From a virus: a DNA stretch of 40,292 nt. Under the pieces are notes generated by a model, which ran no database searches, had not been told where the DNA came from, and saw only the letters and a list, made by a program, of their open reading frames with translations. Shown in pieces: positions 7,123 through 22,134 of this stretch. The DNA lies in the IMG/VR virus record IMGVR_UViG_3300042465_007462, positions 1 to 40,292 of that record; one strand, given 5' to 3'. Within the stretch, counting starts at the first letter, position 1. The number at the start of each line of letters is the position of its first letter. The translations under genes and the position numbers were made by a program.

Positions 7123-7854
7123 TCAAACATTCGACCAGCTAAAAGTACGCCCGAGCCCCTTGATAGTTTTTAATCCGCGCTCATGTGCGAGCCGTTCCAT
7201 GTCGAGAGCTCGAGCGTACAAATCCGGGTGTCGTTCGCGCAGCTCGACGATCTCCTCGCGCTTCGACGCCGGGCAATGAAAGCAGCTTGATTTTGCCGGG
7301 ATCGGCAACCCAGCCGCGGCGATCTCGAGCTTGCATCGATCTCGATCCCATCCCCACTCGATCAGCGGGAATCGGTTTGCGTAACCGTCCGCGGCTTTTC
7401 CCTCTGCCTTAAATCGGCGAACGCTATCGCGAGGGCCGGCGTCATATCCGACACATTGCGTGACGGTCAGCCCTTGCGCCCATGCATCACGTGCCGGTTG
7501 CCAGTTCTTCACAAATTTCCTTTGCGGGTCTATTTTCCAAACGATCGAGCATTGATGTTGCCCATACGCGAGCGCAGGAAGTACGCGATTGCGCACACAA
7601 CTCTCCGACAAGCTCCGATCGTTTGATTTCGGCCGCGGATTCTTCACGACGGTGACGCGCGGGAATCCCACGCGATCGAGCCATCCATTGATGACCTCGA
7701 GGTACGCGTAGGTTTCCGGTTTTTCATCGCCGGTGTCGGCGAACAGGATCAGATCGGGCCGTTCGCCTCGTTGCCACAGGCCGACAAGCATGGCAGTCGA
7801 ATCAACGCCCATGCCGTAAGCCACCACTAGTGGATTTCGTGTAATCGGTTCCAA
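7123..7854 (-). CDS. PAPS-reductase-like PP-loop protein (adenine nucleotide alpha-hydrolase fold)
   Basis: The PP-loop YGMGVDST (13-20) and FADTGDEKPETYAYL (39-52) are characteristic of the PAPS reductase/adenylyl-transfer superfamily; C102 and a CFHC pair (191-194) may be redox or metal ligands. The open frame extends upstream, but the conserved 10-mer AGAAAGGAGA (7861-7870) lies 6 bases before a TTG at 7854, giving 243 residues that begin just before the PP-loop. Phage homologues are common and their substrates mostly unknown. Sulfur transfer or nucleotide modification are possibilities; a role in DNA modification is speculation. Confidence 0.8.
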   Translation of the reverse strand: MEPITRNPLVVAYGMGVDSTAMLVGLWQRGERPDLILFADTGDEKPETYAYLEVINGWLDRVGFPRVTVVKNPRPKSNDRSLSESCVRNRVLPALAYGQHQCSIVWKIDPQRKFVKNWQPARDAWAQGLTVTQCVGYDAGPRDSVRRFKAEGKAADGYANRFPLIEWGWDRDRCKLEIAAAGLPIPAKSSCFHCPASKREEIVELRERHPDLYARALDMERLAHERGLKTIKGLGRTFSWSNV

Positions 7855-7860
7855 GTCCTT

Positions 7861-7870
7861 TCTCCTTTCT
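7861..7870 (-). promoter_or_regulatory. Start-associated element AGAAAGGAGA (sets a TTG start)
   Basis: Identical 10-mer ending 6 bases before the TTG at 7854, which it defines as the start of the PP-loop gene. A short hairpin CGGCC-AGC-GGCCG (7872-7884) abuts it upstream, only one base away. Confidence 0.75.
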
Positions 7871-7919
7871 GCGGCCAGCGGCCGAATGAAATCCTCGTAC
7901 AACCGGGATGCCGTGTCAA

Positions 7920-8048
7920 CTACCTCCGACCCCTTCCATGCAGGATTGACTGCCAGAGCATAAACAGAAAAAACCGGATCATATGCTTCTTCGGCGGTGG
8001 ATCGGTCGGTAACTTCAACGGCCCCGGCGGGAATTGCTTTCGTTTCAT
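7920..8048 (-). CDS. Small putative membrane protein (42 aa)
   Basis: The ATG at 8048 overlaps the stop of the upstream gene as ATGA. The product has a basic, proline-rich N-terminus (MKRKQFPPGPLKLPTDPPPKKH) and one hydrophobic helix (MIRFFLFMLWQSIL) with a basic end, so it could insert once in the membrane. It is too small for family recognition. It sits between two hypothetical genes and the PP-loop gene. Confidence 0.5.
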   Translation of the reverse strand: MKRKQFPPGPLKLPTDPPPKKHMIRFFLFMLWQSILHGRGRR

Positions 8049-8254
8049 CCGCGGCGCTCCTTGTGCTCGAGGTCCGTCCCATCGAGCCACACTTCGCAAC
8101 CGTTGCGCCACGCAGAGTCAGATCCACGCTCAGTCTTGAACGTCTCGCACTTTGCGTGTTGATGCCACTCCTTGCCGGTCATTTTAAATTGTTTTTCTTT
8201 GTTGTAGTCCCAGCCCCAGAGCTTCGTCCGTGGCGGTAGTGTCATGGCTTTCAT
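8045..8254 (-). CDS. Hypothetical protein (69 aa)
   Basis: The ATG at 8254 overlaps the upstream stop as ATGA. The product is polar, with aromatic residues in its first half (LWGWDYNKEKQFKMTGKEWH) and two cysteines. It ends in EVWLDGTDLEHKERRG. No family is recognised. Coupling on both sides indicates it belongs to the same operon as its neighbours. Confidence 0.65.
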   Translation of the reverse strand: MKAMTLPPRTKLWGWDYNKEKQFKMTGKEWHQHAKCETFKTERGSDSAWRNGCEVWLDGTDLEHKERRG

Positions 8255-9077: not shown

Positions 9078-9486
9078 GTGTGTACATGAGCATATGCCAC
9101 GGGACCACGCCGTAGTGATAGCGCACGATCGGATCGGTGTCGATGCCCGACTTCGCGAGCTCGAGCACTTGCTTTCCAGAAAATAACAAGAGCTGCCCTT
9201 CCCTCGATGCGACCTTACCCGGTGGCACGTAAAGCACCAGAATGAACGTGCGCACTCCAAGCTCCGCATGGCGCGCATGGAAGGCGATCTGATGTGGCGA
9301 AAGCTTCACCTTGCGGCCGTGCTTCACCACCTTGAGCTCGACCGGGACGAACTCGCCTGTTTGCTTCAGCGCAATGAAACAGTCCGGGATGCCAAGATTT
9401 ACCCGCGACTCAATCCGGGTAATAAGGCAGTTTGGGAGGTTTTCCTTTAGGCGCTGGTACAGGCTCGTCTCTGGCTTCGCTGGCAT
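9064..9486 (-). CDS. VRR-NUC-like PD-(D/E)XK nuclease
   Basis: The 140-residue product contains the PD-(D/E)XK core as GIPDCFIAL (D35) and FVPVELKVV (E50, K52), followed by LSPHQIAFH with a conserved Gln. This fits small phage nucleases of the VRR-NUC or Holliday-junction-resolvase type, which cut branched or damaged DNA. The only ATG is at 9486 with AGAGGAA upstream, so the gene overlaps the terS C-terminus by 77 bases. The position next to terS suits a role in resolving DNA before packaging, but that is inference. Confidence 0.75.
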   Translation of the reverse strand: MPAKPETSLYQRLKENLPNCLITRIESRVNLGIPDCFIALKQTGEFVPVELKVVKHGRKVKLSPHQIAFHARHAELGVRTFILVLYVPPGKVASREGQLLLFSGKQVLELAKSGIDTDPIVRYHYGVVPWHMLMYTLAEA

Positions 9487-10147
9487 CTACTAGTTCCTCT
9501 GCCTCTTCGGCTTCCTCGATCTCGACATCTTCGGGCTCGTCGTGCTCAAGCTGGATCGGTTCCTCGAGACTCTCCTCGACTTGCTGCGGCGTCACGTCGA
9601 TGATCGGGCTGCCGTTGCCGTACAGCTTCTTGATCTCCTCGAGCTTGCGCATGACCTCTTCCTTGCTCATGGAATCGATCGTGCCGTGCCGAATCTCTTT
9701 GCGATCGATGTAGATCGTTCCAAGCGCTTGCCCTCGACGGTACTCCGCTTGCACCGCGGCGCCATACGCTCCCGCGGCCAGAGCCTGGTCACGAATGACC
9801 TGTAGGTCTCTCATGTGCCGCTCGTAGGTCGTGCCGTACTTCTCGGCCATCTCCGCTCGAGCCTTCTGAATGGCAGCGACGATATGCGGATTTTTGTCGG
9901 GGTTGGTCAGCGTCTCGGCCTTCGTGGCCGCGTTCTTCTCGGGCCACCCCGCACGGACCACGGCTTCCTTGAGCGTGACGTGTCCGTCCCCCGAGACAAA
10001 CTCGTTGACGAACTTCCATTCCTGCGTGGTCAGCTCACGGTTCTTGTGTGGCTTCACGGGCCGCGCGAGCTTCTCCAGCGTCTGCGGCTGGAGGCCCTTG
10101 CCGATCTTCTTGCCGAACTCCTTGTCAGCCTTGCTGCGTAGCTTCAC
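9410..10147 (-). CDS. terS: Terminase small subunit (TerS)
   Basis: TerS recognises phage DNA and feeds it to TerL. The GTG at 10147 is chosen because it overlaps the upstream stop as GTGA and has GGAGGG just before it; this gives 245 residues. The DNA-binding region (about residues 40-100) shows LTTQEWKFVNEFVSGDG and AGWPEKNAATKAETLTNP, the helix-turn-helix pattern of the terminase small-subunit family. A helical middle part would form the oligomer. The C-terminus is very acidic (EDVEIEEAEEAEELVD) and then Pro/Lys-rich. Confidence 0.85.
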   Translation of the reverse strand: MKLRSKADKEFGKKIGKGLQPQTLEKLARPVKPHKNRELTTQEWKFVNEFVSGDGHVTLKEAVVRAGWPEKNAATKAETLTNPDKNPHIVAAIQKARAEMAEKYGTTYERHMRDLQVIRDQALAAGAYGAAVQAEYRRGQALGTIYIDRKEIRHGTIDSMSKEEVMRKLEEIKKLYGNGSPIIDVTPQQVEESLEEPIQLEHDEPEDVEIEEAEEAEELVDASEARDEPVPAPKGKPPKLPYYPD

Positions 10148-10359
10148 GCAACCCTCCACACGCGCCAGCCGTCCTCGACCTTGCGGCATGAGAACTTCGT
10201 CCCGTGGCGCTTGGAAAACATCCACGCGGCGCTGCGGGCGTTCTTCGCCGACTCGGCATCGGCTAACAGGAAACTGTCCCCCACGGCCATGACCGGGAAG
10301 GGGTACTTCTCCCGCTGGGCTTCGGCGGGGATAGGGATGCCCGAATCAACTCTTAACAT
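10144..10359 (-). CDS. Small conserved phage protein (71 aa, DUF7303-like)
   Basis: The pattern GIPIP, then KYPFPVMAVGDSF, then a helix ending in KRHGTKFSCRKVEDGWRVWR is a recurrent small phage protein that I associate with DUF7303 from memory. The fold looks like a compact alpha/beta domain; function is not known. It is the first gene of the leftward run containing terS. No good ribosome-binding site is seen before the ATG at 10359, so translation may start on a short leader. Confidence 0.7.
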   Translation of the reverse strand: MLRVDSGIPIPAEAQREKYPFPVMAVGDSFLLADAESAKNARSAAWMFSKRHGTKFSCRKVEDGWRVWRVA

Positions 10360-10423
10360 GCCACTAGTCTACTCCGAGCAATTCGGGATCGTCCAGAGGC
10401 TAAATAGCGGTTTACTAGTACCT

Positions 10424-10438
10424 CAGAGGGGTCTACTA
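10424..10438 (+). repeat. Left arm of 15-bp inverted repeat
   Basis: CAGAGGGGTCTACTA, perfectly matched in reverse complement at 10599-10613. The arm lies within a weaker dyad (AGTACC to GGTCTACT), flanked by two TACTAGT copies. It is 65 bases upstream of the leftward gene starting at 10359. Candidate operator. Confidence 0.7.
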
Positions 10439-10598
10439 GTTTTTCAATTTCAAAAATTCATCCCGCGCGCGCACCCCAGAGAAATTACACCCACTGACCT
10501 CCTGTAATTCACCGTGTAGCTCTAACATACTGATTTACAAACCCTCTTACACCATTACGTCTATTACGCCATTTTTTGAAAAAAAAAAAACAAAAACA

Positions 10599-10613
10599 TA
10601 GTAGACCCCTCTG
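10599..10613 (-). repeat. Right arm of 15-bp inverted repeat
   Basis: Reverse complement of the arm at 10424-10438. It is also part of a local dyad, AGTAGACC to GTCCTACT (10600-10623). It follows the A-rich tract and lies about 150 bases upstream of the rightward promoter. Confidence 0.7.
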
Positions 10614-10760
10614 GAGTCCTACTACTGTGCGTTTTTGGCGCTTTTTGGCCATCAGCCGGTCATTTGCTGCCCCTTGGCCCGTGATCCATGTTGCACCAAA
10701 ACCACACCCCTCCCCAAAACCCAACAGCTTAACTCCTTGATTCTTAACAAGTTAATTTAG

Positions 10761-10789
10761 TTGACTCATTGACCAGTCTATGAGATAAT
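10761..10789 (+). promoter_or_regulatory. Sigma70-type promoter for the lone plus-strand gene
   Basis: TTGACT (10761-10766) and GATAAT (10784-10789) are separated by exactly 17 bases, within AT-rich DNA. Transcription would begin near 10796, giving a leader of about 50 bases with a weak CGGC/GCCG hairpin. This is the best promoter match seen in the window. Confidence 0.75.
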
Positions 10790-10830
10790 ATGTTGTCGGC
10801 CCTTCACGGTGCCGGCGTTCTTTAACAACC

Positions 10831-10840
10831 AGAAAGGAGA
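10831..10840 (+). promoter_or_regulatory. Start-associated element AGAAAGGAGA (plus strand)
   Basis: The only exact copy on the plus strand, 7 bases before the ATG at 10848. It shows that the element follows gene starts and not one strand. Confidence 0.8.
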
Positions 10841-10847
10841 AAGCCAC

Positions 10848-11183
10848 ATGGCTAATCAAGTGACTGTAGCCCAGAAGCTCTTTGAGAAGTTCGTCATGTT
10901 GAGCGCCAACGACGCTCGTCTGACGGTAGTCCTGGTCCGTGAGCCACGGCCCTCGGTGGTCGTAGCGTTGCAGGAGGACGATGGGGACTTGACCCCGCTC
11001 GCTCGACTCTTAACCAAGGAGGAGATCGACGGGATGGTCCCGGACTTCGACAAGACTCGGAAGCTGGCGTTAGCGTTCCGAGAGGCGCGGACCGTGGACA
11101 GTCGGACGCGATCGGAGGAGTTTGGGGACGGCAAGCCTCATCCGCTCTTCTCGATGGATGGTTTAGACCGGCTGGGTCTGTAA
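10848..11183 (+). CDS. Isolated hypothetical protein (111 aa) with its own promoter and terminator
   Basis: The ATG at 10848 (MANQVTVAQKLFEKFV) is set by the conserved 10-mer. The product has a helical start, two predicted strands (LTVVLVREP and SVVVALQED), an acidic linker and a second helical part (FDKTRKLALAFREA) ending LFSMDGLDRLGL. No family is recognised. A good sigma70-type promoter precedes it and a strong terminator follows within 10 bases, so it is expressed as a single gene against the surrounding leftward genes. This arrangement is typical of immediate-early regulators or moron genes; neither is proved. Confidence 0.75.
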   Translation: MANQVTVAQKLFEKFVMLSANDARLTVVLVREPRPSVVVALQEDDGDLTPLARLLTKEEIDGMVPDFDKTRKLALAFREARTVDSRTRSEEFGDGKPHPLFSMDGLDRLGL

Positions 11184-11189
11184 GACGAG

Positions 11190-11224
11190 GGCCCCGGGGA
11201 GTGATCCCCGGGGCCTTTTGCTTT
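11190..11224 (+). terminator. Rho-independent terminator for the lone gene
   Basis: GGCCCCGGGGA-GTGA-TCCCCGGGGCC is a perfect 11-bp stem (11190-11215) followed by TTTTGCTTT. It starts a few bases after the stop of 10848-11183. Confidence 0.9.
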
Positions 11225-11226
11225 GT

Positions 11227-11254
11227 AAAAACCCCCGGGTCTCTCGACCCGGGG
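11227..11254 (-). terminator. Rho-independent terminator for the leftward operon
   Basis: On the minus strand, CCCCGGGTC-GAGA-GACCCGGGG is a 9-bp stem followed by G and five T. It lies downstream of the gene ending at 11302 and abuts the opposite terminator, insulating the lone gene from leftward transcription. Confidence 0.85.
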
Positions 11255-11301
11255 TCCGCGGCAGGTGATGGCTGGAGTGCTGAAAAAGCGCCGCGACAAA
11301 C

Positions 11302-11544
11302 TTACTGGACACCCGCTCCCATAGCCTTCTTGAAGTCGCCTTCAAGCATACGGGCGGCGGTGCGGACGGTCATGATCTCGCCGAATTCGATCTCTGAGAC
11401 GTCGACCTCGAGGGGGCCGGGGATGAGTCCCGGAACAACGACCACGGGCCCGACGAGCCCGTAGCGCGTGCCGTTGATCGTGAGGGTGATCATCTGCACG
11501 AGGGAGGGCCGATCGTCGAGCTCGAGGTCGTCCATATCGTTCAT
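11302..11544 (-). CDS. Hypothetical protein (80 aa)
   Basis: The ATG at 11544 overlaps the upstream stop as ATGA and is preferred to a longer frame. The product begins MNDMDDLELDDRP and has a beta-rich centre (MITLTINGTRYGLVGPVVVV) and a helical end (VRTAARMLEGDFKKAMG). It is the last gene before the leftward terminator. No family is recognised. Confidence 0.65.
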   Translation of the reverse strand: MNDMDDLELDDRPSLVQMITLTINGTRYGLVGPVVVVPGLIPGPLEVDVSEIEFGEIMTVRTAARMLEGDFKKAMGAGVQ

Positions 11545-11777
11545 GCCTTCATGTTGCGCCCGGACTCGTACCAATGCAAATCGAGCAAGAGCCGTTCGAT
11601 ATGCGTGGCGAGGCCGTCGCGTTCTTGTTTAAGACCACGAACCTGTTCCGCGAGCGTCTCGAGGAGGACGTTCTGCACTTCGATCCGTCGTCGCAGCTCG
11701 AAAACGTACTCGCGGAGCTGAAGATCATGGATCGGGATGGGCGGATCGTCGGTGCTATTGATGGCCGGGCGCATCAT
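11541..11777 (-). CDS. Coiled-coil hypothetical protein (78 aa)
   Basis: The start overlaps the stop of the HTH/DUF6378 gene. After a short polar N-terminus the product is one long amphipathic helix (LRRRIEVQNVLLETLAEQV and on to LATHIERLLLDLHW) with a heptad-like Leu/Val spacing, predicted to dimerise. Coupled to both neighbours. Function unknown. Confidence 0.65.
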   Translation of the reverse strand: MMRPAINSTDDPPIPIHDLQLREYVFELRRRIEVQNVLLETLAEQVRGLKQERDGLATHIERLLLDLHWYESGRNMKA

Positions 11778-22116: not shown

Positions 22117-22134
22117 CAGGGATTGCAAGCCCTG
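22117..22134. promoter_or_regulatory. 18-bp dyad in the divergent SNF2 control region
   Basis: CAGGGATTGCAAGCCCTG is symmetrical except for one base pair. It lies 18 bases before the SNF2 ATG and 50 bases before the divergent GTG at 22067, a good place for an operator controlling both. It could alternatively fold as a 5' mRNA hairpin. Confidence 0.45.

Follow-up and report, generated by a model that had tools for sequence, protein, structure and literature searches.

Comparison with related phages gives good support to a variable slot, in a virus record of 40,292 bases, that holds a cassette in which the open reading frame (ORF) is exchanged. We interpret this arrangement as an exchangeable single-gene cassette of the moron type in a fixed slot, probably gated by host Nus factors, and on balance we consider that reading probable, if not strongly so. 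Neither the exchange of the ORF nor the leader of hairpin and boxA described below was part of the preliminary description of the region.

The stretch analyzed, which we call the window, is the whole of this IMG/VR virus record. In its family-A DNA polymerase, it shares 78% identity with phage DSL-LC04 (Dishui Lake) and 53% with pelagiphage HTVC023P; judged by sequence, the group to which the phage belongs is a family of uncultured, DSL-LC04-like phages. Pseudomonas is a predicted host of DSL-LC04, and described only as such (PMC10611076). Most long ORFs of the window run leftward, and the SNF2-type helicase at 22123 runs rightward. The gene of interest, which together with its homologs we call family A, is also rightward and is flanked by TerS-side genes and by a leftward operon whose last gene occupies 11302-11574 (Table 1). 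Part of the slot (10413-10625) is largely kept also in slots that lack the family A gene; it contains repeats resembling TTACACCATTACGTCTATTACGCC and, around AGTAGACCCCTC, an inverted repeat, and in sequence it looks like an origin or an operator.

Table 1. Features of the slot and its surroundings, in positions of the window
Feature	Position	Strand	Remarks
TerS-side gene	9410-10225	.	weak terminase small subunit match
Second TerS-side gene (g10144)	10144-10359	leftward	
Variable slot between g10144 (TerS side) and g11302 (end of leftward replication-side operon)	10360-11301	.	80 distinct slot sequences including the window, 71 typed
Sigma70-type promoter TTGACT-17-GATAAT, TG extended -10	10761-10789	+	hexamers 10761-10766 and 10784-10789, 10/12 match
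Hairpin at predicted transcript 5' end, abutting boxA	10794-10816	+	-11.6 kcal/mol, p 0.015 versus shuffles
boxA-like GTTCTTTAACA, perfect match to GYTCTTTAANA	10817-10827	+	sole match in window, 0.05 expected
Shine-Dalgarno AAGGAG	10834-10839	+	6 nt past boxA, 8 nt ahead of ATG 10848
Family A gene, 111 aa, exchangeable passenger	10848-11183	+	ATG 10848, stop 11181-11183
Strong rightward intrinsic terminator, part of cassette	11187-11218	+	stem 11-12 bp; same after ORF exchange
Leftward terminator of neighboring operon, outside cassette	11233-11254	-	9 bp and T run; counterparts in HNH slots

The preliminary description had proposed that a near-consensus sigma70-type promoter, an 11-bp-stem terminator behind the gene, and an opposed terminator insulate a single gene from all other transcription. 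The promoter and the terminator behind the gene were both borne out, and the insulation holds in terms of sequence features, that is, of a promoter and a terminator belonging to the unit itself. Transcription is predicted to start at about 10796; the "start element" also mentioned earlier was left undefined there, and we took it as this predicted start or as the ribosome site. Among sites with at least 10/12 matches and the TG, the promoter is the only one in the 40,292-base window (mean of 0.025 over 40 shuffles). When the TG criterion was dropped, the window contained 2 sites of at least 10/12, against 1.3 by chance; thus, the hexamers alone are unremarkable. Both slot terminators are among the three strong terminators of the window, and each of 5 shuffles yielded 0. 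The opposed terminator exists as proposed but is not a member of the unit. By eye, a counterpart is present in 4 of 5 aligned slots without a gene (L016, L126, L138, and L139, where L numbers denote loci) and is not evident in L135, indicating that this terminator ends the neighboring leftward operon and is not an element of the cassette.

To compare slots, we fetched loci by two proteins, taking the best 80 of 596 confirmed for the DNA polymerase and the best 80 of 541 for the TerS-like protein, a sampling that is blind to slot content but weighted to near relatives. Family A loci were also fetched by their own protein, and both distinct A slots other than that of the window (L088 and L105) recur via TerS. 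Nine of the 80 distinct slots were open-ended and without a known family and were dropped (L054, L066, L067, L071, L077, L078, L083, L087, and L096); L087 is DSL-LC04 itself, for which a rightward "HNH endonuclease" and an "ATP-dependent protease" are annotated that the profiles used here missed. The 71 typed slots from these best-80 sets comprised 3 of family A, 5 of family B, 7 of family D, 33 with an HNH gene, and 23 with none of these families. This last class is not uniformly empty, since L159 holds another ORF of 119 aa. In two slots counted as B, out-of-frame ORFs in the leader matched the A profile, and the profiles of A, B, and D showed no cross-match other than through such leader letters. 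The three distinct A slots known are all near-identical.

Slots with A, B, or D genes shared their regulatory elements. A perfect boxA was found in 15/15 of them, in every case as GTTCTTTAACA ahead of the ribosome site and behind a hairpin; with both strands considered, it was found in 0/33 HNH and 0/23 other slots. A terminator within 75 nt behind the ORF was likewise present in 15/15 and in 0/33 HNH slots, with the 23 other slots left unscored. By script, a promoter of at least 10/12 was detected in 13/15, compared with 0/33 HNH slots and 0/23 others (a 300-nt stretch only in this last class). One of the two misses, L060, has an 8/12 promoter; for the other, L149, the script chose the wrong start, and the boxA leader there has a 12/12 match. 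Two HNH-type proteins were scanned, of which one scored above and one below the HNH_3 cutoff. Several slots of the HNH type (e.g., L061, L165, and L162) have another common leader, made up of GCGCAAAGCCC, a hairpin, a GGGCTTCACTTCCC-like element, an ACGAC stretch, and the ATG.

Close relatives that differ in the slot revealed the exchange itself. Locus L011 (family A) and locus L009 (family B) align in four pieces, separated by three breaks, with 98.3% identity over 14.6 kb. At one break, both ends agree with those of the slot ORF to within 2-4 nt; the other two correspond to an extra ~300 nt in L009 and an extra ~860 nt in L011. When L004, from the same contig as L011, was set against L009, the promoter, leader, and terminator were alike around both ORFs. 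The window and L004 are 97.5-100% identical over 10551-11225, versus 74-91% in the stretches measured on either side, and 86/87 positions are identical over 10761-10847. This pattern points to a recent exchange of the cassette together with the part upstream of it, although it could alternatively reflect strong constraint. Between L009 (B) and L008 (HNH), nearly the whole slot differs and the remainder is 88-96% identical. As a separate oddity, the B-type cassette at L170:740-1110 has an in-frame stop, and ~29 nt of the slot promoter lie inverted just before its terminator, which could reflect a rearrangement or an assembly error.

The preliminary description had offered an immediate-early takeover protein, a repressor, or a moron as roles for the gene, and the moron-like reading is the best supported of these because relatives carry unrelated genes, or none, at the same site. 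Phage morons are genes with their own promoter and terminator. The window unit has both and is variably present at one site among relatives; like morons, it consists of a promoter, one gene, and a terminator placed between operons and absent in relatives. It differs from them in that the regulatory shell stays at one site while the inner ORF is exchanged, and in that the shell includes a boxA.

The passengers themselves gave few clues to function. An alternative in-frame GTG at 10809 would extend the family A protein to 124 aa; we prefer the ATG at 10848 because of its strong ribosome site. The protein had no tblastn match at an E value of 10 among 50,697 phage records, nothing above the Pfam cutoff, a best E value of 0.22 in PHROGs, and nothing convincing in PADLOC. 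Five IMG/VR loci, one of them partial, encode it at 97-99% identity. The earlier view of a 111-residue orphan thus stands for its length and for phage records, Pfam, and PHROGs, but not for IMG/VR. Among 84,980 species genomes, 166 pattern stretches included 0 relatives. Matches to DrmC (E value of 0.017), DUF6054 (0.035), and a PDB dehydrogenase (0.48) were treated as chance. Unlike other slot occupants, the protein has no HNH motif in Pfam or PHROGs searches, and its structure, predicted without relatives, was too poor to use (mean pLDDT of 44.8). Family D falls within phrog_12905, with relatives in Caulobacter phages. Its fold, predicted from 18 sequences, was good (85.9) and had no PDB match at an E value of ≤0.001 (best, 1.3); in a viral library there was a single match at that threshold, to the nameless protein K4JSY8 (E value of 6.9e-9). 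A relative of family B was found in Stenotrophomonas phage DLP5, where the gene is preceded by a -10-like CATAAT, then a hairpin, a boxA that deviates from the consensus at one position, and a Shine-Dalgarno sequence. Insulation, a small size, turnover, and a promoter that is strong and of the host type are all compatible with takeover or anti-defense genes, and the promoter and turnover suggest that the passengers are probably host-interaction proteins of such kinds. A strong promoter of the host type also suits early expression.

The leader is the most constant part of the cassette. A GYTCTTTAANA motif within 50 bp of a start codon has been used to define putative gamma-proteobacterial boxA sites, of which 407 were predicted in 314 genomes (PMC5725501). 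The boxA of the window lies 20 nt before the ATG, inside that distance, and is separated from the Shine-Dalgarno sequence by 6 nt; the consensus applied is the gamma-proteobacterial one. Across 162 sources (1.70 Mb in overlapping loci, window included), boxA occurred in 14 distinct contexts, and in 11 of these an A, B, or D gene follows; permuted boxA motifs (n = 20) gave a mean of 0.1 such cases in the same sources. The hairpin next to it was assessed in 35 leaders, chosen because they have a boxA and a promoter that scores 8/12 or better, and including the window (L001) as well as four probable chance matches to the pattern (L191, L231, L268, and L270). Thirty of the 35 folded better than shuffles at a P value of ≤0.05; the exceptions were L191, L268, L270, L259 (0.07), and L206 (0.07). 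Of the 19 D leaders, 12 share the same length; in these, 99% of cells preserve the helix, and one pair is double-changed in three sequences. Their covariation score was reached by 1/500 shuffles, with the count of double-change pairs (309/500) and the pair types (447/500) lying within the shuffle range, and covariation support for the D-leader hairpin is therefore modest. When 38 nt of coding sequence were added to the window leader, folding was no better than that of shuffles (z of 0.28), and the predicted fold paired boxA with the ribosome site. We judge it somewhat more probable than not that this boxA is a real Nus site.

A close precedent is suhB, in which a boxA lies 6 nt from the Shine-Dalgarno sequence and Nus factors repress translation; the Citrobacter koseri gene for a ParE-like toxin (CKO_00699) is likewise Nus repressed, and repression survives inserts of up to 100 nt (PMC5725501). 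The Escherichia coli suhB leader reads GTTCTTTAACA followed by TCCAGTGAGAGAG, and thus shares with the window the same boxA, the 6-nt spacing, and a similar purine-rich ribosome site; the boxA of E. coli rrnB reads GCTCTTTAACA. Unlike the phage cassette, the suhB leader showed no hairpin in the short stretch folded (13 nt before boxA). The phage genes, in turn, are unrelated to suhB and exchangeable, and their Nus dependence would be by analogy.

We propose that host RNA polymerase reads the cassette from its strong promoter, which would allow expression soon after DNA entry, and that the transcript presents, in order, the hairpin, boxA, a ribosome site 6 nt on, the gene, and its own terminator. 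The coding sequence would be swapped, presumably by recombination in conserved flanks, with promoter, leader, and terminator retained. By analogy with suhB, boxA probably binds host NusB/S10 and gates translation of any passenger. On the same analogy, passenger translation would be weak while Nus factors are free and higher when they are occupied, although this direction is uncertain. A more specific version, put forward only tentatively, is that a suhB-like leader has been turned into a portable phage shell for unrelated anti-host genes, with host Nus factors and rRNA synthesis timing translation of the passenger. One point against repression is that, for a takeover gene, it would seem wasteful to combine a strong promoter with an element that represses.

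It is possible, although we find it rather doubtful, that boxA in the same cassette acts positively, with NusB/S10 producing a Rho-resistant RNA polymerase or a free ribosome site and so full expression. The hairpin-then-boxA order echoes the boxB-then-boxA order of rRNA leaders. Since boxA and the ribosome site pair in the predicted structure, NusB could also activate, and antitermination fits as well for Pseudomonas phage AF and Bordetella phage BB8, in which a perfect boxA lies far from any gene (>100 nt from the next one). A positive role of boxA has its precedent in rRNA leaders (PMC4807359, PMC10250234), but both tested cases of boxA before a coding gene, suhB and CKO_00699, proved to be repressed (PMC5725501). 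The unit, moreover, is only ~430 nt long and ends in a strong terminator. A leader that is no Nus site at all, in which the hairpin, a pyrimidine-rich stretch, and the Shine-Dalgarno sequence form a stable and efficient translation leader kept for swapped genes, seems unlikely. Hairpins at the predicted 5' end, as in stabilized mRNAs, are found in the A, B, and D leaders and agree with this idea. It does not account well for 11 boxA letters that are invariant in the 15 typed A, B, and D slots while hairpin letters and spacing drift (an invariance that rests on slot comparison and typing, as the 35 folded leaders were preselected for those letters), nor for an exact match to the boxA consensus that is rare elsewhere in the 1.70 Mb.

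The other explanations concern the slot or the gene. With an HNH_3-like profile gene in 33/71 typed slots, the site might be one of HNH nuclease homing, at which A, B, and D arrived later as passengers or took the place of the nuclease gene. HNH slots, however, have a different leader and lack both boxA and the rightward terminator, which argues that the A, B, and D cassettes are not HNH cassettes with the ORF alone replaced; we regard this account as decidedly unlikely, although HNH homing could be a route that brings variation into the slot. A short, abundant boxA transcript might also act as an RNA decoy that titrates NusB/S10 off host rRNA synthesis, leaving the ORF secondary. The constant boxA near the 5' end, the strong promoter, and the variable ORF would suit a decoy, yet an ORF with a terminator behind it is present in 15/15 typed boxA slots, and boxA is missing from 56/71 typed slots, making it very unlikely in our estimation. 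Least credible is the repressor suggested earlier, here acting divergently on the leftward operon next to it: the gene is placed divergently beside an operator-like inverted repeat, but relatives in which much of the flanking region is kept lack it or have another gene in its place, and Pfam and PHROGs searches assigned the protein to no DNA-binding family.

In lambda nut sites and in the boxB-boxA of rRNA leaders, a hairpin and boxA lie near the transcript start, as in the phage cassette; here, unlike in those leaders, boxA sits right at the ribosome site, and the unit is short and terminated. Among coding genes outside rRNA, Nus control has been demonstrated for suhB and for a single toxin gene of C. 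koseri (PMC5725501); in the phage cassette, whose ORF is exchanged, the Nus signal would be the part that stays constant. Among the matches listed in a search of open-access titles and abstract openings, we found no report of a boxA that immediately precedes the ribosome site of a phage cargo gene. In archaeal viruses, anti-defense genes were found via a common early promoter, which is similar in that one conserved strong regulatory sequence precedes many virus genes (PMC11065993). That case differs in concerning archaeal viruses, with an abstract that does not mention boxA, whereas ours involves one slot in bacterial phages and a merely possible anti-defense role. If Nus gating is correct, phage gene expression would be tied to host ribosome synthesis, and a short signature would point to small uncharacterized genes of phages, which form a large class that offers no other handle. 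If the shell is portable as well, the boxA leader could serve as a query for finding host-takeover and anti-defense genes in virus genomes.

A pattern search of virus contigs returned 101 stretches, many of them without a promoter or an ORF. In three loci (L199, L204, and L206), promoter, boxA, and Shine-Dalgarno sequence precede a family of 81 aa, beside TerS-side genes but in a different slot. In two distant phages (L211 and L259, the latter with a polymerase at 55%), such a unit with a 495-aa protein, which has a subthreshold HATPase match, lies divergently beside a TerS-like gene. These five loci were found via the leader pattern, so only their position and passengers count as independent evidence. 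Searches farther afield gave matches that we attribute to chance: short D-leader matches in four records of enterobacteria and Actinobacillus phages were on the strand opposite to genes (E value of ~6), and a leader and -10 pattern matched 9 times in 84,980 species genomes, in other bacterial groups and an archaeon by organism name. Two of these 9 were folded and had no hairpin at a P value of ≤0.05. On one contig, two small boxA-led genes stand in tandem (L225:5191 and 5465). In phages AF and BB8 (L286:1001-1018 and L287:1001-1027), the perfect boxA is followed by ACCAG and is untranslated. Elsewhere in the window, positions 1-1100 hold an array of related 24- and 27-nt repeats, possibly a repetitive coding stretch, and the minus strand at 7123-8127 carries a phosphoadenosine phosphosulfate reductase-like gene.
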